Virus record (IMG/VR): IMGVR_UViG_3300037189_004221
Location: 1-25,456 of that record
From: a virus
Reading direction: 5' to 3' (one strand)
DNA length: 25,456 nucleotides
The translations under genes and the position numbers were made by a program. Positions within the stretch are counted from its first letter, which is position 1. The number at the start of each line of letters is the position of its first letter. The notes beneath the pieces are model-generated. The model saw only the letters and a list, made by a program, of their open reading frames with translations, was not told where the DNA came from and ran no database searches. Of this stretch, positions 4,205 to 23,726 are shown in pieces.

Positions 4205-5130
4205 TGATCGACGTGAGTCGTGAACGACTGAAGCAGGTCTTCGTTCGCTTTGGCGATTCGCATCAAGAGAGGCGTTGAGTCTTCGGTAGCCTGCTTGGTT
4301 CGGTTTTCAGGCAGTGGTAGCGCAGAATATTTGCGCCCATCTTCATTTTTTAGACCGAGAAATGACGCAGCATTCATTTCAATGGCTTTTCCAAATCCGA
4401 CATCCAGCGCAGACACTGTTTTTACATCTGCCCTAAACAGGTTTAGCAGCGCGGTTAGGCCTTGGATCAATGCCGTTGCAATTGGAGCTCCAGCAATCAT
4501 GAACTCGCGAAACGCTGCCTCAAACTTTTTGACGTTGTCGTCAATGGTTTGAATGTCCCCTTCGCTGATTGTCTTTACGTCTCCCATTTGATTCAACTCG
4601 TCGACAACGAGCCGAAGGTTACCAACTTTTCGACCAAGAAGCTCAAAAGCTGCGGCGCTTTCTTTCGCTGATCCTCCAGAAGACTTTACAGCCCTCTGCA
4701 TGATGTCCATTGAGGATGACTCCGGGTTGATTCCGAGCATTCCAAAAATGCGATTGGCACGCTCGTCTCCGGTAAGCGCTTGAGCCTTCATTTGCTCAAT
4801 ACGCTGAAACGCCCCAACAATAACCTTGAAACTCTGCCCTGAAGTTTCAGCTGCTTTCTGCAAGCGCTGGACTTCGTCAGTAGAAATTTCAAGGAGTTCG
4901 GACATGTCCTTGATCTCCCCGACGATATTTTTTAATTCGCCGAAATAAGACTTTGCCGCTGACACCGTGAACATGCCAGCAAGTGCGCCCTTGATGCTGT
5001 CGTTCTCACGCTTGAGGCTTTCCGAAATGCCCTTGCCGAGACCAGACGCGGACGATTGCGCACGTTTAATTCCGGTCTGGAAGTCCGTCGTGTCGAGGCC
5101 GAGCTTGGCTAGAAATGTGAAAATGGCCAT
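4201..5130 (-). CDS. Short tail tape measure protein
   Basis: This 309-residue protein begins MAIFTFLAKLGLDTTDFQTG. It has the N-terminal pattern of phage tape measure proteins, which set tail length and are ejected with DNA: a short beta start, then GLDTTDF, then long Ala/Ser/Lys helices. Residues about 70-190 are helical with heptad-like spacing (GEIKDMSELLEISTDEVQRL), followed by a hydrophobic stretch near residue 235. The ATG at 5128-5130 is chosen because GGAGG lies 7 bases upstream. An in-frame extension to 5217 would overlap the preceding gene and reads as low-quality sequence. At 309 residues it is far shorter than the lambda protein (853 residues). Gene order (tube candidate, chaperone candidate, tape measure) supports the call. 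Confidence 0.75.
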   Translation of the reverse strand: MAIFTFLAKLGLDTTDFQTGIKRAQSSASGLGKGISESLKRENDSIKGALAGMFTVSAAKSYFGELKNIVGEIKDMSELLEISTDEVQRLQKAAETSGQSFKVIVGAFQRIEQMKAQALTGDERANRIFGMLGINPESSSMDIMQRAVKSSGGSAKESAAAFELLGRKVGNLRLVVDELNQMGDVKTISEGDIQTIDDNVKKFEAAFREFMIAGAPIATALIQGLTALLNLFRADVKTVSALDVGFGKAIEMNAASFLGLKNEDGRKYSALPLPENRTKQATEDSTPLLMRIAKANEDLLQSFTTHVDQ

Positions 5131-7442: not shown

Positions 7443-8911
7443 GGTGTTACCTCCTGCGTCTGATCGGTTGGCGTTTGAGCCGCCCCAGAGTTCGTGTTGA
7501 TTGCCTTCACTTCGTCCGTTGAGATTCCAGCTTCGGCGCATTTTTCGCGGAACCGAATGGCAAAGGCGATTTGCTGATCCATCACGTGCTCCCAGTCGTT
7601 GCCAATCTGCGCGGCCTCGATCTGCGGTGAAGACAACCCGCGCTCCATGCGGATCTCGGAAACCTGCCCGGCGTATTTGGCATCCGCCGTTATATTGGCC
7701 GCGCCCTGGTAGCGCCACCGGTACCAATCATCCGACGGAGGCAGCATCCCCTCCTTGATAGCCTTGGCGATGCGCCACGAGTCAACCGAACGAGCCAGCG
7801 GAAACAGGCATTGGCTGCGCATCATGCCGACATGACGATTGATGCGCTCAACCACAACACGCATTGCAGCGCCGCCCACCTTGGACGGGTCCAGGAAGTA
7901 GTCAATTGACCATCCCATCCCAGCCATAGCCTGACGGATGATGGAATCCGCAAACTGCTGTTGCGCGGGAGTGGGTCGGTCAGCCTTGAGCGCCTCCAGT
8001 TTGCCTCCGGTTCCGCTGCGGAAGTATTGGATCTCGCCCCCACGCATTGAGTGCATGGCAAGATTTGCGTCCGGGTTGGTCTCGGTCGAATCCTCGCCGA
8101 GCAGGCTTTCCGCAGTCGCTGGAGGAAGTCCGGTTTCGTTGGTCTCAGCGAGGACGATCGAAGCCGCAAGCTTCTGCGCAATCAGCTCAAAGCGCCGAAC
8201 CTCGTCGACATCCTGAAAGTCCGTCATGGCGCATCCAAGCGCCGAGAATCCGCGCACCTGATCGGCGTACCGAGGCAGGAAGCGCACCTTCATGTCGACG
8301 GCGCTGATGTCCTGATACGTCGTCCTTGCGTCGTCGTATACCCGGTAAGCGAGCGGTCGCCCCACGTCATTGACGATCACTCCGTCAACGATTCGATAGC
8401 CTTCCCAAGGCGAGTCGGAGCCAGCGGTTCCAACTCCATTGTCTCGGATGCGATGCGCCGGGATGGTCTGCAAAAGAGGGTAGCCACCAGCGCCCTCGGT
8501 AAAGATAACGCCTACGTCTCCGTCGCGGATGATGTGAAGCATCCATAGGCGTTGCAAAGTCTGCATTGGGTACAGGTCCCCGCGCACGTCGCAGAGTCGG
8601 TCGTGATCCTCCAGCCATTGTTCCGCAAGCATCCCCCAGCCAGAGTCAGACCCGGCAAACTGCGGCGTGAGTTCGCCAGACACAATTGCGGCCTGATCGT
8701 CGACGGATCCAGCCACCAGCGAGTTGTTGGCGTAAAGCCAGCGCCCCATCGACATCAGCAGCAGGCGATCTGTGCCGCTGTACAGATTAGCCGCGTCGCG
8801 ATCGAATCCAGTGCGAGCCCTGCGTTGCTGCGAGCCAATGGCAGCAGTACTGATCCGGGTCGGCATTAGCCGCCCGAACTGGTCAAAAAGTCTGACGGGT
8901 TGCGTGGCCAT
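7439..8911 (-). CDS. Portal protein, lambda gpB family
   Basis: This 490-residue protein would form the dodecameric ring through which DNA enters and leaves the head, and to which terminase and the connector bind. Recognisable lambda-B-type features are an N-terminal segment with many Arg and Gln, a wing region (LAEQWLEDHDRLCD then QTLQRLWMLHIIRDGDVGVI), PLLQTIPAHRI, and a Pro/Gln-rich C-terminus ending QTQEVTP. A polar stretch around residues 230-330 (ADQVRGFSALGCAMTDFQDV and following) fits the stem/clip and crown helices. Length is close to lambda gpB (533). The ATG overlaps the upstream TAA as TAATG. Flanking gpW-like and S49 protease genes give the lambda W-B-C order, which strengthens the call. 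Confidence 0.9.
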   Translation of the reverse strand: MATQPVRLFDQFGRLMPTRISTAAIGSQQRRARTGFDRDAANLYSGTDRLLLMSMGRWLYANNSLVAGSVDDQAAIVSGELTPQFAGSDSGWGMLAEQWLEDHDRLCDVRGDLYPMQTLQRLWMLHIIRDGDVGVIFTEGAGGYPLLQTIPAHRIRDNGVGTAGSDSPWEGYRIVDGVIVNDVGRPLAYRVYDDARTTYQDISAVDMKVRFLPRYADQVRGFSALGCAMTDFQDVDEVRRFELIAQKLAASIVLAETNETGLPPATAESLLGEDSTETNPDANLAMHSMRGGEIQYFRSGTGGKLEALKADRPTPAQQQFADSIIRQAMAGMGWSIDYFLDPSKVGGAAMRVVVERINRHVGMMRSQCLFPLARSVDSWRIAKAIKEGMLPPSDDWYRWRYQGAANITADAKYAGQVSEIRMERGLSSPQIEAAQIGNDWEHVMDQQIAFAIRFREKCAEAGISTDEVKAINTNSGAAQTPTDQTQEVTP

Positions 8912-9171
8912 TAGACAGCAGCACCCATGACCGCCACCGATCTAGTCGGCGGAATCTGGGAAAGCGGATACAAATCCGGGTTGATGGCGAACAGTGCCTT
9001 TTGGACCAAAACAAACCGCTGGAATGGTCCCATCTGGATGATGGATGACGCCTGAACGTCGCCAGCGGACGAGGATTGCAATTGCGATCCAGACAGCATC
9101 TCAGTCTGGATGCTCCTGCGAGCAGCCAGCAACTCCGCCTCAGTCAGTCCGACGAACGGGTTGAACGCCAC
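8911..9171 (-). CDS. gpW-like head-tail joining protein
   Basis: This 86-residue protein starts at a GTG (9169-9171) and begins (V)AFNPFVGLTEAELLAARR. The sequence LTEAELLAARRSIQTEML followed by a Ser/Gln turn and short polar strands resembles the start of lambda gpW (an EELAAARAAL-type helix then a beta hairpin). It also sits exactly between large terminase and portal, as W does. gpW joins the portal after DNA packaging and is needed for tail attachment. The 26-base gap after the terminase stop contains TTAAGG close to the start codon. Size is slightly larger than lambda gpW (68). The match is by eye over about 30 residues, so the family call is probable rather than certain. Confidence 0.7.
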   Translation of the reverse strand: MAFNPFVGLTEAELLAARRSIQTEMLSGSQLQSSSAGDVQASSIIQMGPFQRFVLVQKALFAINPDLYPLSQIPPTRSVAVMGAAV

Positions 9172-9196
9172 ACCTTAACCCGTAACCGCAACACCG

Positions 9197-10951
9197 CTAC
9201 GCGACGCCCTTTGCCATTGCGGCGAAAACTTGCATCCGTGCCACGTCCCACGCGTGCGGTTCGCACCCAACTTGCTCCCACGTTTCCGGTTCCCCCGGCT
9301 TCTTTCGGATTTTCATCATGCTGTTGAGTTGGTCCGTGTAGTCCTGTTCTGCCTTTGTCATTGGCTCGACTTTGGGCTCAACCCATAGACCGGAGTCACG
9401 CAAAGCCTGCAAACGGTCGGCGGTTGATGGTTTGGAGATGAAGAAAGCCAAAGCCTTTTTGCCTTTACTGGTCAGCCCATTGGAGTCCGGGTCGCCCCAC
9501 CAGGACAGGCTCCACGGTTTCTCCACCCACGTCGGCGCTTTACCTGGCTCGGTAACCTTGTGCTTCCAAGCCCTGCGAGCGTCGCCCCGAATGCAAACCC
9601 AATCGTAATTGGCTGCCCACGTGTAGACCATGCGAGCATTCCAAGCTGCGTCAATGATCACGCATCGCGGCTTGATGTTCATCGCGATTCTCAACGCCTC
9701 AATCTCCTCTGGCGTTTTAACCTGCCCCCAATGCAATCGGCGGCTTTCCCCGGTTTTAGCCCATGCGCGAGCCATGACGTGAAAGTGACCGTGCTGCGTG
9801 TCGACCGCCATGAACCGGAAAGCCTCGTCTGGCCATTCCTCCGAAGCTGACATTTCGACGCGTTGCAGCGGGTTTTCCGATTCGGCAACGGTCCGCTCGT
9901 TGGCGAACTCCGCCAGTTGCTTCTGGGTGAAGTCTACCAGAGGCTTCCAATTGCCACGCTTGGATTGGACGCGGGCAGCAAGAAACAAAGCGACAAGATC
10001 GCGCCATTGGGCGCAGATGACATCGTTCCAGTGATAGCTGTGCGACTCCGAGGACCCACCCTCGACACGAGCGTATCGACCCATGGCATTCCATCGGCCT
10101 TGCGTCTGCTTGCACTCTTTGTGCTCGTGCCCGCAGAACTGGCAGACGTAACGCGTCGTCGCTTTGGCGCCCTCAATGTCGTAGGATCCGTCTGCCCTTT
10201 TGTCGGCTGCAAACACGATTCCGTATCGGCTGCCGTCGTCGTGCTTGCCCGAAAAAACAGGTCGCTGATAGACGCCGCATGCGTCGCACGGGACTTCCCA
10301 CTCATGCACGGTCCCGGCTGTGTATTGCTGCCACCATTCCCCGCCAGTCTCTCCGCCTTGGGAGATGCCGAGGAACTTGTCGGACTGGTTGCGCCTGAAG
10401 TCTCCAAGCCGCGTCTTGGCCTGTCCCAGTCGTCCATGTGGCCAAAGCCAAAGCTCGTCTCCAATCAGGTAGCGATAGCCTCGCGCTTGCAGATTGCCGA
10501 ATGCCGGACCCTTTACGTGGACCGGGTAGCCATTGGCCAGTTGAATCTCGGTTGAGCGGTCCTTGTGCCGGTTTTCTGGCAGCAGCGACTGGACTGCCTC
10601 GCACGCGTGCAGAATTGGCATCAGGCGCGTTTCGCAGTGCAACCGTGCCTGATCATCCACTGCAAACACCCAAAGCAACGGACCGGGATCCTGGGCGATT
10701 GCCCACGGCGCAAACACATCCGCGATCAAAGTCTTTCCGGTCCGAGGAGGAGCGAGAATGTTGACCTCGCGCACGCGGTCGGATTTGAGCGAGTCCAACG
10801 GTGCGATGAAGTGACGCGAGATCGACGGATCAAACTTGCCGGAAAACGTAAGCGTTGGAGGCAACGTCACATTGTCCGCCGCCCACTCTGAAATGGGCCT
10901 TCGGTCAGGAACCCACTGTATTCTCCGCCACTCTTCTGCCAGATCAATCAC
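9197..10951 (-). CDS. terL: Terminase large subunit, lambda gpA family
   Basis: This 584-residue packaging ATPase and nuclease would pump DNA into proheads. The GTG start at 10949-10951 overlaps the upstream stop as GTGA. The N-terminal motor domain has a Walker-A-type motif APPRTGKT at residues 67-74 and Walker B YLIGDE at 161-166. A four-cysteine zinc-binding insertion lies at about C222/C225 and C270/C273, with more Cys/His after, a hallmark of the gpA type. The C-terminal nuclease domain has candidate acidic residues D384 (MAVDTQHGH) and D434 (VIIDAAWN). The C-terminus is slightly shorter than lambda gpA (641). It precedes gpW-like, portal and protease genes as in lambda. Its small-subunit partner is not adjacent but lies about 10 kb upstream. 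Confidence 0.93.
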   Translation of the reverse strand: MIDLAEEWRRIQWVPDRRPISEWAADNVTLPPTLTFSGKFDPSISRHFIAPLDSLKSDRVREVNILAPPRTGKTLIADVFAPWAIAQDPGPLLWVFAVDDQARLHCETRLMPILHACEAVQSLLPENRHKDRSTEIQLANGYPVHVKGPAFGNLQARGYRYLIGDELWLWPHGRLGQAKTRLGDFRRNQSDKFLGISQGGETGGEWWQQYTAGTVHEWEVPCDACGVYQRPVFSGKHDDGSRYGIVFAADKRADGSYDIEGAKATTRYVCQFCGHEHKECKQTQGRWNAMGRYARVEGGSSESHSYHWNDVICAQWRDLVALFLAARVQSKRGNWKPLVDFTQKQLAEFANERTVAESENPLQRVEMSASEEWPDEAFRFMAVDTQHGHFHVMARAWAKTGESRRLHWGQVKTPEEIEALRIAMNIKPRCVIIDAAWNARMVYTWAANYDWVCIRGDARRAWKHKVTEPGKAPTWVEKPWSLSWWGDPDSNGLTSKGKKALAFFISKPSTADRLQALRDSGLWVEPKVEPMTKAEQDYTDQLNSMMKIRKKPGEPETWEQVGCEPHAWDVARMQVFAAMAKGVA

Positions 10952-20724: not shown

Positions 20725-21099
20725 TCAGCCATTGCGTTTTCGTCGATGCGTCTTTGTTATCCCCGGAGGAAGTCCAAGCTTTTTGACCACTCCAGCAGCC
20801 ATACGGCGAATTGCCTGGCCAGACATCCCGCACAGTTTGCCGATGTGCTCCAGCGAGTACAGGGTCTCATGCCCTGGCATTCGCAGGACGTAGACCGCAA
20901 TCATTACGCGAGCCTGAGCAGCCCGACGGTATCGCGCCTGAAAGGTTGGCGTGGTAGACAGCAAGACCAGCGATGCAAACGCCCTGGCTCCACGCTCGAC
21001 GGCTGCGCGCTCAAGCTCACTGTTCCAGCCTTGCGGTTGCATCTCGCCTAGGCCGCGCTCTACCTCGTCCAAGTCAAAGTCTACGGATGGCTCGTTCAT
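20725..21099 (-). CDS. Small protein with C-terminal HTH
   Basis: This 124-residue protein begins MNEPSVDFDLDEVERGLGEM. The acidic N-terminus leads to a helical middle. Residues about 80-112 (YSLEHIGKLCGMSGQAIRRM, then AAGVVKKLG) form a helix-turn-helix like sigma-70 region 4 or response-regulator DNA-binding helices, followed by a basic tail (KTHRRKRNG). It is coupled to the small terminase gene by an ATGA overlap and has a GAGGAG ribosome site. Its place between small terminase and scaffold suggests a DNA-binding helper for packaging initiation or a late regulator. I do not recognise the family. There is no enzyme motif. Confidence 0.6.
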   Translation of the reverse strand: MNEPSVDFDLDEVERGLGEMQPQGWNSELERAAVERGARAFASLVLLSTTPTFQARYRRAAQARVMIAVYVLRMPGHETLYSLEHIGKLCGMSGQAIRRMAAGVVKKLGLPPGITKTHRRKRNG

Positions 21100-21578
21100 T
21101 TGGATTTCTCCTCAAACTCAACCGCACAGGAAGCCAGCACATGGCCGATAGCATCCCAGACCTTGCGCACCTCCTCGCGGATCTCGGCAACGTCCTTTCC
21201 CACCATGCGGAGCGGAGCCTGGGATTCGGATTGCGTCCTAGCCTCGGCGATCTTGGACGCGATGCGACCGAAAGCGCCAGCGACCAGTGAGCGCTCGACG
21301 AGCGTCCCGGCTTTGCGGTCGTTGATCAGCTTGAGCTGCCGGATCTGCTCTTGGAGCTTCTGGTCTTTGAGCGGGCCTGACGATGCGCGTGATCCTGCGG
21401 CTTCAAGGGCAGCTTTGGCTTGAGCCTCAGTCCATGCCGGGTCGCCGTGTTCTGACGTGCCAGTGGGAGTGACGTTGACCAGCGCAGCGCGCAGAGCCTC
21501 GCGGCCCACCTTGAGGATGCGGGCAAGCTTTGTGACCGACAGCGGGACGGCTCCTGCGGCTTGGGTTGATTTTGCCAT
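21096..21578 (-). CDS. terS: Terminase small subunit, Nu1-like
   Basis: This 160-residue protein begins MAKSTQAAGAVPLSVTKLAR. Residues about 14-35 (SVTKLARILKVGREALRAAL) form a winged-helix/HTH N-terminus as in lambda gpNu1 and DUF1441-type small terminases. The rest is two to three long helices (KLQEQIRQLKLINDRKAGTL; RIASKIAEARTQSES; VAEIREEVRKVWDAIGHVL) that would form the oligomer. The small subunit binds the packaging site and recruits the large subunit. The upstream 195-base spacer carries phased A-tracts and 20-bp repeats, a plausible binding site. The large subunit partner lies about 10 kb downstream. Start at 21578 has no clear ribosome site, but the HTH begins immediately after it. 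Confidence 0.75.
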   Translation of the reverse strand: MAKSTQAAGAVPLSVTKLARILKVGREALRAALVNVTPTGTSEHGDPAWTEAQAKAALEAAGSRASSGPLKDQKLQEQIRQLKLINDRKAGTLVERSLVAGAFGRIASKIAEARTQSESQAPLRMVGKDVAEIREEVRKVWDAIGHVLASCAVEFEEKSK

Positions 21579-21773
21579 GTTTAGACAGAGGTCGATCTGC
21601 TGCGGTCACCTGTTATCCAGCCCCAACGGGAGCCTCCTAATTGATCCAAAACCGGTAAAAAATGCCGGAAAACAACAAAAAACGCCGATTGGTCGATAAA
21701 AACCAGCATTTTGCCACAAAAGCCTCGACATTGGCATGCAAAACCCCTTTCCAATCCCCAAGACGCGAGTAGC
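21579..21773. other. Curved, repeat-bearing spacer before terS (candidate cos/pac)
   Basis: This 195-base non-coding spacer is AT-rich against its surroundings. On the plus strand, A/T tracts are centred near 21650, 21660, 21670, 21680, 21700, 21711 and 21720, close to one helical turn apart, a pattern that produces intrinsically curved DNA. The 11-base element AAAAAAYGCCG occurs at 21657 and 21677, exactly 20 bases apart, with a degenerate copy at 21697 (TAAAAACCAGC). Its place directly upstream of the small terminase parallels lambda cosB, where Nu1-binding repeats flank a DNA bend. No promoter with well-spaced -35/-10 boxes was convincing. Confidence 0.45.
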
Positions 21774-22040
21774 TCACAACAAGTTCTCAAGCTCCTGCCT
21801 TGCCTTCTCCAGCTGGCTCGATGAGTAGATGTTGGCGATCTTCCATGCCGCCTTCCTAAGCTTGTCGGCAACACGACGAGCATCATCACGCTCCTGCTCC
21901 AGCTTGCGTGCGAGCTCAACAGACACGACATAGACTTCGGGTCTTGGGTCGCGACCAGTAGCCCAATCCTGCCAAACCTTGGTGACGGGTTGGCTTGCCA
22001 CATCTGACTCCGGCGTTGCACTGATCTTTTTTGGTTTCAT
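21774..22040 (-). CDS. Small coiled-coil protein, unknown
   Basis: This 88-residue protein begins MKPKKISATPESDVASQPV. After a polar N-terminus, residues about 40-80 form an amphipathic helix with heptad spacing (SVELARKLEQERDDARRVAD, then KLRKAAWKIANIYSSSQLEK). No catalytic motif, signal or membrane segment is visible. Its ATG overlaps the preceding stop as ATGA. It is the last gene of the replication-side cluster before the packaging spacer. Small helical proteins of this kind are common and usually uncharacterised in phages. No function is proposed. Confidence 0.65.
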   Translation of the reverse strand: MKPKKISATPESDVASQPVTKVWQDWATGRDPRPEVYVVSVELARKLEQERDDARRVADKLRKAAWKIANIYSSSQLEKARQELENLL

Positions 22041-22204: not shown

Positions 22205-22383
22205 TTGGTTTCCTTTCTCGCTGCCTTCCACGCTTCGTATGCCACTTCGCGGATGAACGTGGTATTGCACGCCCTGGTCTCAGCCCACTCCCTCCACCAC
22301 CTCCCGAACTCTATGCGTTGATGCACGATTCGGTCTAGACGTTGTTGCGTCTCCTGCTCGTCGCTGTTGATTGCTGGTATCAT
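22201..22383 (-). CDS. Small Trp-rich protein, unknown
   Basis: This 60-residue protein begins MIPAINSDEQETQQRLDRIV. The middle is helical and notable for Trp and Glu (FGRWWREWAETRACN), followed by FIREVAYEAWKAARKETK. The ATG overlaps the DnaB-like helicase stop as ATGA and its own stop overlaps the next start as GTGA, so it belongs to a tightly coupled run. It has the look of small phage proteins encoded next to replicative helicases, but the family was not recognised. Confidence 0.55.
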   Translation of the reverse strand: MIPAINSDEQETQQRLDRIVHQRIEFGRWWREWAETRACNTTFIREVAYEAWKAARKETK

Positions 22384-23726
22384 TCCGGCCTTTCGCGTTG
22401 CGTTGGTGTAAACTCGGTGATGGATCGTTGGAACACGAACGGCACGTCCAGTTGTGCGCTTCCCCTGCGGTTCTTGGCTACGAACATGTTGACCTCAATC
22501 GTGTCCGCGTCGTCTACGTCGAACTCCGTCGGCGCTTTCGGTCGGTACAACATGCCCACAAAGTCCGCGTCTTGCTCAATTGCGCCAGACTCGCGCAGGT
22601 CGGACAGGCGCGGTTTGCGGTCTTTGTCCTTTTCGATCTCGCGGTTTAGCTGCGCCAAGACGACCACGGGTATCTTCAGTTCCCGCGCCAGCCTCTTAAT
22701 GCCGGAACTGATTGCGTCGACCTGCTCGCGCCGTTGAAGCTTCGGGTTGCCTTGGATAAGCTGGAGGTAATCGACGAACACGATGCGGACGCCTTGATTG
22801 CGGACCCATCGACGGGCTTTGGCTGCAATGCCGCCCACCGTGATGGACGCACCCTCGTACACGATGATTGGGAGCTTGCCGACAACCGAGGCCGCAGTCG
22901 TCATCCGGCGGTACTGATCGTCGGTCGGCGGGTTATTCTGGTCGAAGTCATCCCAGTTCATACGCGATTCCTGCGCCAGAAACCGGCCTCCAAGCTCTTG
23001 ATCGCTCATTTCGAGGCTGACGATTCCAACCGGCACTCCAGACCCCGCCAGCAGGTGAGCCATGGATAGCGCGAGCGAGGTTTTACCGGTCGCCGGTCTT
23101 CCTGCCATGACGATCATCTCGCCTGGACGGAATCCGCCTCGGGTAATGTGGTCAAGGTATCGCCACCCAATCGGCAGACCGTCGCACACTCCAGCAATGC
23201 GCTCCTGAAGCGCTTCAACGGCCCGCCGCGCCACTTTCTTTGCCGTGGTGTCACTCTGGGTGCCGAATTCGCCTCTTACGCCTAGGATGGCCGTTTCCGC
23301 TTCAGCAATGGCCATTTCGGCATCTTCAGGCTTTCCAAATACCGAACCGACAATAGTTGTCGCGGCCGACAGCAGGCGGCGAAGTTGCCATTTCTCGCGC
23401 AGGATCGGCAGGTAGTACGGCAGGTTGGCGGCTGACGGCACTGCGTCCATCAGTTGCGACAGGTAGGCAAGACCTCCGACGTGATCGAGTTGGCCTTGAG
23501 CCTTGAGACGGTTGGCTGTCGTGATCAGGTCAACGGCGGTTCCATCGGAGTGAACGTCGAGCAACGCGTTCCATGCCTCCTTATGGCGCAGGTCGTAAAA
23601 CCACGATCCGTCCACTCCAGCTTCCGCGGAAGCGTCGATGCATTCTCTCGACGTTAGGCAGCATCCGATCACTCCCATTTCCGCATCGATGTCGTGCGGC
23701 GGCAGCTTGTCAATCGATTGGCTCAT
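22380..23726 (-). CDS. DnaB-family replicative DNA helicase
   Basis: This 448-residue hexameric 5'-3' helicase would unwind phage DNA at the fork and recruit primase. The N-terminal helical domain runs to about residue 150 (PPHDIDAEMGVIGCC start). After a linker, the RecA-like core has Walker A GRPATGKT at 209-216, Walker B VFVDYLQLI at 316-324, the H4-type VVLAQLNRE with Gln359, and an arginine-finger region LSDLRESGAIEQDAD around 374-388. Length is close to bacterial DnaB (about 470). The ATG overlaps the initiator stop as ATGA, so the two are coupled. It probably replaces the host helicase or helps load it at the phage origin. Confidence 0.95.
   Translation of the reverse strand: MSQSIDKLPPHDIDAEMGVIGCCLTSRECIDASAEAGVDGSWFYDLRHKEAWNALLDVHSDGTAVDLITTANRLKAQGQLDHVGGLAYLSQLMDAVPSAANLPYYLPILREKWQLRRLLSAATTIVGSVFGKPEDAEMAIAEAETAILGVRGEFGTQSDTTAKKVARRAVEALQERIAGVCDGLPIGWRYLDHITRGGFRPGEMIVMAGRPATGKTSLALSMAHLLAGSGVPVGIVSLEMSDQELGGRFLAQESRMNWDDFDQNNPPTDDQYRRMTTAASVVGKLPIIVYEGASITVGGIAAKARRWVRNQGVRIVFVDYLQLIQGNPKLQRREQVDAISSGIKRLARELKIPVVVLAQLNREIEKDKDRKPRLSDLRESGAIEQDADFVGMLYRPKAPTEFDVDDADTIEVNMFVAKNRRGSAQLDVPFVFQRSITEFTPTQRERPE

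Follow-up and report, generated by a model that had tools for sequence, protein, structure and literature searches.

A probable cos site with a predicted bend and conserved right-flank elements beside the small terminase gene of an uncultured phage

For an uncultured phage, the genome termini almost certainly fall in the spacer next to its small terminase gene (TerS), and this spacer likely contains a cos site, the modular right flank of which probably aids the terminase, a reading that jointly best explains our data. We analysed one stretch of DNA, the 25,456-nt virus record IMGVR_UViG_3300037189_004221 (hereafter the window), in which nearly all apparent genes lie on the minus strand. The spacer, 21579-21773, is bounded by the TerS ORF (21096-21578) and an ORF at 21774-22040, both on the minus strand, and divides TerS from the small ORFs and the DnaB helicase gene (22380-23726). 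The original prediction had given these limits correctly and had suggested a packaging initiation site between them, which is supported by the termini of relatives mapping inside the spacer. Assembled contigs were sufficient to locate the genome ends of an uncultured phage group, and a match of only 12-14 nt between the two ends of a contig can be the sign of a complete cos genome in cases where a database labels it 'linear'.

Table 1. Positions of the putative cos site, its flanking elements and the terminase genes in the window
Feature	Position	Strand	Remarks
cosN, putative 14-nt 5' cohesive end GGTGACCGCAGCAG	21597-21610	-	homology to ends of relatives
Phased A/T-tract array, strongest predicted bend of the window	21646-21743	-	bend centred ~52 bp to the right-end side of the cut
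Repeat copy 1, AAAAAAYGCCG = AAAAAATGCCG	21657-21667	+	proximal edge 47 bp from the cut
Repeat copy 2, AAAAAACGCCG	21677-21688	+	AAAAAAYGCCG at 21677-21687, exactly 20 bp from copy 1
AGGAnnCT copy AGGAGGCTCC, candidate cosQ-like site	21629-21638	-	-28 from the cut
Outer flank element GGGGATTGGAAAGGGGTTT	21741-21759	-	about -150 from the cut
Left-flank motif TCGACCTCTGTCTA, just inside the left genome end	21582-21595	-	core YCRACCTC
TerS (small terminase)	21096-21578	-	weak matches: phrog_141 E=0.0015, phrog_57 E=0.012
TerL (large terminase), GpA family ATPase + nuclease	9197-10951	-	PF05876 E=2e-24, PF20454 E=8e-9, both above cut-off

The position of the cut was derived from related phages. 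A search of viral contigs with TerS returned five relatives, and four of the five contigs end 32 nt before the TerS ATG. In the alignment G002, G003, G004 and G005 terminate at one identical base, GGTGAMCGC, where G002 and G003 (L002/L003), being identical over 5.5 kb, were counted once. G004 (35,689 nt) opens with GGTGAACGCTGCAG and closes with the same 14 nt, a terminal repeat that is too short for an assembler overlap and fits end repair (fill-in) of 5' cohesive ends. At the homologous base L040, the TerS of which is 54% identical to that of the window, begins with CCGATCT, followed by GGTAACCGC. We take CCGATCT to be the end of a common Illumina adapter, and such a remnant would apparently mean that the adapter had been joined to a native DNA end. 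L055 and L056 (TerS ~53% identical to that of the window and 86% to that of L040) carry the same GGTAACCGC and continue through the site. In addition, contigs with other terminases were reached through a 60-aa ORF located close to the right end. One of them, G018 (39,789 nt; TerL 22% and DnaB 65% identical to those of the window), has a different TerS and, at the equivalent site a few tens of bases ahead of this gene, the 12-nt terminal repeat TGAGGCGAAGCT. The 14- and 12-nt repeats of G004 and G018 suggest 5' overhangs, the strandedness being deduced from the presence of the repeat at both contig ends. Fixed, unique genome ends at one base are seen in close relatives and would apply to the phage of the window, the contig of which runs through the putative cut site, by homology of the end sequence only. 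On this basis, the top strand of the window would be cut between 21611 and 21610, with the left genome end starting at 21610, and the distance from the cut to the TerS ATG would be 32 bp, of which 18 lie beyond the cohesive end.

In the last 20 nt before the cut, G018 and L068 have a short inverted repeat (GCAGG...CCTGC in G018); predicted hairpins of this kind are found in the window and L066 in addition to L068, and not clearly in L055. The contig end of G001 (L024 11700-11949) folds back, as CAGACCGGTTTGCCAAACAT is an inverse repeat of a stretch 100-200 nt earlier, which is probably an assembly artefact.

The right flank of the putative cut is dominated by A/T tracts that recur about once per helical turn, as had been described for the spacer. 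We confirmed the centres at 21649.5, 21659.5, 21670.5, 21679.5, 21700, 21710.5 and 21719.5 and add an eighth at 21741.5, all within 21640-21743. Their phase coherence at ~10.5 bp amounts to 7.54, with 8 as the maximum, a value that none of 1000 dinucleotide shuffles reached and that is the highest of all 110-bp stretches in the window. The two AAAAAAYGCCG copies do start at 21657 and 21677, exactly 20 bp apart, and an equally good pair occurs in 10% of the shuffles, so that the pair alone is not significant. Of the 'degenerate copy' described at 21697 the A-run is present and little beyond it, with 6 of 11 positions kept. Copy 2, with 21688 included, reads on the minus strand as the element TCGGCGTTTTTT at -78 from the cut. 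As L001 carries GGCRTTTT three times, spaced 9 and 10 bp, a single helical turn, and not 20 bp, seems to be the repeating unit.

Curvature was calculated with two dinucleotide wedge models, with parameters after the published tables, and came to 106 degrees (Bolshoy) and 102 degrees (AA-wedge) per 63 bp at the array. The predicted bend, centred at ~21662, is the strongest anywhere in the window, by both models and for three different spans, and the predicted curvature of the spacer exceeds that of 500 out of 500 shuffles of the spacer. The curvature check proposed with the original prediction therefore came out in its favour. The phased tracts recur in G004 and L001, two relatives with a TerS of the same family, as the prediction had implied. 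Together with the window, both have predicted bends of 92-112 degrees, followed by L066 with 76 and G018 with a moderate 57 degrees; in L068 the bend is weak and not above background, and in L055 and L056 it is absent. The strongest predicted bend of the whole G004 genome falls in the homologous flank. An Rfam search for an RNA element gave no match at E up to 0.5.

Besides the tracts, three elements of the right flank, at about -28, -80 and -150, are common to seven genomes with differing TerS, TerL and helicase (the window, L001, G004, L055, G018, L068 and L066, where the cut positions of L066 and L068 were set by homology to G018 rather than observed). AGGAnnCT begins 28-31 bp before the cut and TC(G)nGCGTTT lies at -78 to -87 in all seven, and the outer element (GGGGATT) lies 149-159 bp before the cut in six of them and 184 bp before it in L055. 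In place of the bend, L055 and L056 have four copies of TGCRTTTGCA, 19, 11 and 19 bp apart, and none elsewhere in their 9.5 and 15.6 kb contigs. On the left side of the cut, the YCRACCTC core at about +16 to +23 is common to the window and the lineage with the 54% identical TerS. Within the first 150 nt on the TerS side, the window has no iterated words, and none stood clearly above shuffles in the seven genomes (lowest p 0.05, in L066).

The original prediction had tied the repeats to TerS, and this part found no support. G004 has a diverged TerS DNA-binding domain, yet nearly the flank of the window, and L001 has a window-like DNA-binding domain, yet different repeats. These pairings rule out covariation of the repeats with TerS; the repeat class changes independently of TerS, and direct recognition by TerS is thus unsupported by covariation. 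Some relatives, moreover, retain the other flank elements but lack the bend. Covariation of the flank with the helicase was likewise ruled out, by G004 with its different primase-helicase and by L043, which has a DnaB 88% identical to that of the window, another terminase and none of the flank elements. The elements occur in those genomes in which a cos end was mapped to this position or assigned to it by homology. As few and related genomes were compared, shared descent explains part of the conservation of the flank. In L043 (5300-9135) an unrelated TerS/TerL pair lies directly downstream of DnaB, marking a module boundary between helicase and terminase.

The arrangement resembles lambda cos in its fixed, putatively cohesive ends beside the TerS gene, a TerL of the GpA family and a static, here predicted, bend near cosN. 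In lambda, TerS anchors at R sites, static bends are located close to the cut and cosQ has its role in termination (PMC4856287). In addition, the title of Higgins and Becker 1994, in the reference list of PMC4856287, refers to a specific site ~47 bp from the cut of lambda, which resembles the position of repeat copy 1, and the title of Yeo et al. 1990, in the same list, refers to bends on both sides of cosN. The R sites and the IHF site of lambda lie between cosN and Nu1, whereas only 32 bp are present there in our phage and the array lies on the opposite side. The analogy to cosB that had been drawn for the spacer thus stands for a bend near cosN, but not for its location, as the array is on the right-end side and not between cosN and TerS. 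No match to WATCAANNNNTTR, allowing one mismatch, was found in 21579-21773, so that the spacer lacks an IHF-like match, unlike lambda cos. The lambda cohesive end has 12 nt, compared to a putative 14 nt of different sequence here. cosQ of lambda is on the right-end side, where the conserved AGGAnnCT at -28 to -31 is a candidate counterpart only. A resemblance to lambda cosN (ACAGGTnAC...CGACCTC) was not used, since the cut position within it differs.

Other packaging systems offer further parallels. In SPP1 pac (pacL-pacC-pacR) the TerS sites flank the cut and pacL is intrinsically bent, and what SPP1 TerS recognises is reported to be the structure of the DNA and not one particular sequence (PMC4856287). 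By analogy, SPP1 is a possible model for a flank that is read by its shape and tolerates sequence change, although SPP1 packages by headful and has variable ends, whereas the ends are fixed in our relatives. In HK97, TerS recognises positions +15 to +29, near the cut, and reads the shape of an A-tract there (PMC11331095). HK97 shares fixed ends with our phages, and YCRACCTC lies within its TerS-bound range; its overhangs, however, are 10-nt 3' ends, whereas 5' ends are deduced here. Among the best annotated relatives of TerL is that of the Verrucomicrobia phage P8625 (24% identical), the record of which ends in the iterated words TATCGGCA beside a helicase gene, a likeness to our flank by inspection. 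TATCGGC words are numerous in the last 140 nt and first 50 nt of P8625 (L057), and the paper on this phage does not report its physical ends.

We propose that a GpA-type terminase would nick concatemers in a staggered fashion at cosN, giving rise to 5' cohesive ends of 14 nt. TerS would thereby come to lie with the late genes at the left end of the genome, and the bent array would be at the right end, together with the small ORFs and the genes for replication. Between about -28 and -150, the right flank would be a cis element, made of phased A/T tracts or, in other relatives, of TGCRTTTGCA iterations, with which the spaced motifs at about -28, -80 and -150 may act in the assembly of the terminase at cosN or in its stopping there. 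The flank probably helps the terminase in one of these two steps, and on balance we favour a role in packaging; that TerS itself binds the repeats is a more tentative proposal, which we regard as somewhat less likely than not. Three roles may be considered for the flank, namely a mirror-image cosB, an enlarged cosQ region and late-gene control, of which the first two are favoured because the spacing is kept relative to the cut and promoter-like sites are missing. In the mirror-image version, which we put forward as a speculation with rather low expectations, the terminase would assemble on the right-end flank through DNA shape and spaced words, a single flank could work with TerS/TerL pairs that are unrelated to each other, and packaging may begin at the right end, which, with the terminase gene as the reference, would be the reverse of lambda. 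Should terminase bind the flank, the recognition side of a cos site can be opposite to that of lambda and exchangeable independently of TerS, and both packaging polarity and shape recognition become testable in a new group.

Late-gene control is the strongest alternative for the flank, although we consider it rather unlikely. Here the cos site would be real and the flank adjoining it a control region with a promoter, activator sites and A-tract upstream elements. The late operon does start with TerS just across the cut, the flank has the replication genes on one side and the late operon on the other, the orientation of its elements is constant, it is common to phages with unrelated terminases, and an HTH-like protein is predicted next to TerS (20725-21099; a reading of the sequence only). 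However, no sigma-70-like promoter was found on either strand in the window region or in the spacers of L001, L056, L066 and G018, and no terminator on the late-gene strand divides early from late genes. The distances of the elements are kept relative to the cut, and in L043 the late operon also begins there, with another terminase, yet without the elements.

It is improbable that the repeats are iterons of a replication origin, the unwinding element of which would be bent and rich in A/T. Direct repeats with a spacing of about two helical turns and a bend near the genes for a replication initiator and DnaB would suit an origin, as would the TGCRTTTGCA copies of L055, confined to one place in the contig; but the window and G004 have near-identical flanks with different helicases, and L043 lacks the flank despite its similar DnaB. 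A short protein encoded in the spacer (a 51-aa ORF at 21606-21761 or a GTG frame) is very improbable. Small ORFs span the flank, with start/stop overlaps with their neighbours in some relatives, but the reading frame is broken in L001, nonsynonymous changes are as frequent as synonymous ones between G018 and L068 (pN 0.16, pS 0.19), the window and G004 differ by three nonsynonymous and no synonymous changes, and no family match was found. Finally, that the contig ends are assembly breaks in ordinary A/T-rich intergenic DNA, in line with the several contigs, including the window, that run through the site and the variable places at which contigs break, is close to refuted by the shared base in independent assemblies (G004, G005, and G002/G003 as one), the matching 14- and 12-nt ends of two near-complete genomes and the apparent adapter junction at the same base in the distant relative L040. 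Open frames cross the cos cut in L055 (about 1052-1300), L001 (about 4331-4529) and at the right end of G018, and the frame of L055 has ATGA overlaps with both neighbouring ORFs.

With regard to TerS itself, the AlphaFold2 model has a winged helix-turn-helix followed by long helices, at a mean pLDDT of 73 and a pTM of 0.35 (low global confidence). Neither a PF07471 match nor an hhalign match to lambda Nu1 was obtained, and with its weak phrog_57 and phrog_141 matches TerS is a candidate member of the Nu1 family. The Foldseek neighbours of the model were MerR proteins, none of them significant, and relatives of TerS were found neither in annotated phages nor, by pattern search, in genome contigs. 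A distance of ~10 kb, occupied by genes for the capsid and other structural proteins, separates TerS from TerL, and the same split is present in G004 (TerS 33-515, TerL 8224-9975). Among L002, L004, L005 and the window, the N-terminal DNA-binding part of TerS (residues 1-60) is highly variable and the C-terminal part nearly invariant, a pattern that suggests domain exchange. The replication helicase has been swapped as well, with DnaB in the window and a primase-helicase in G004 (L022 13069-15006), while the flanking genes are conserved.
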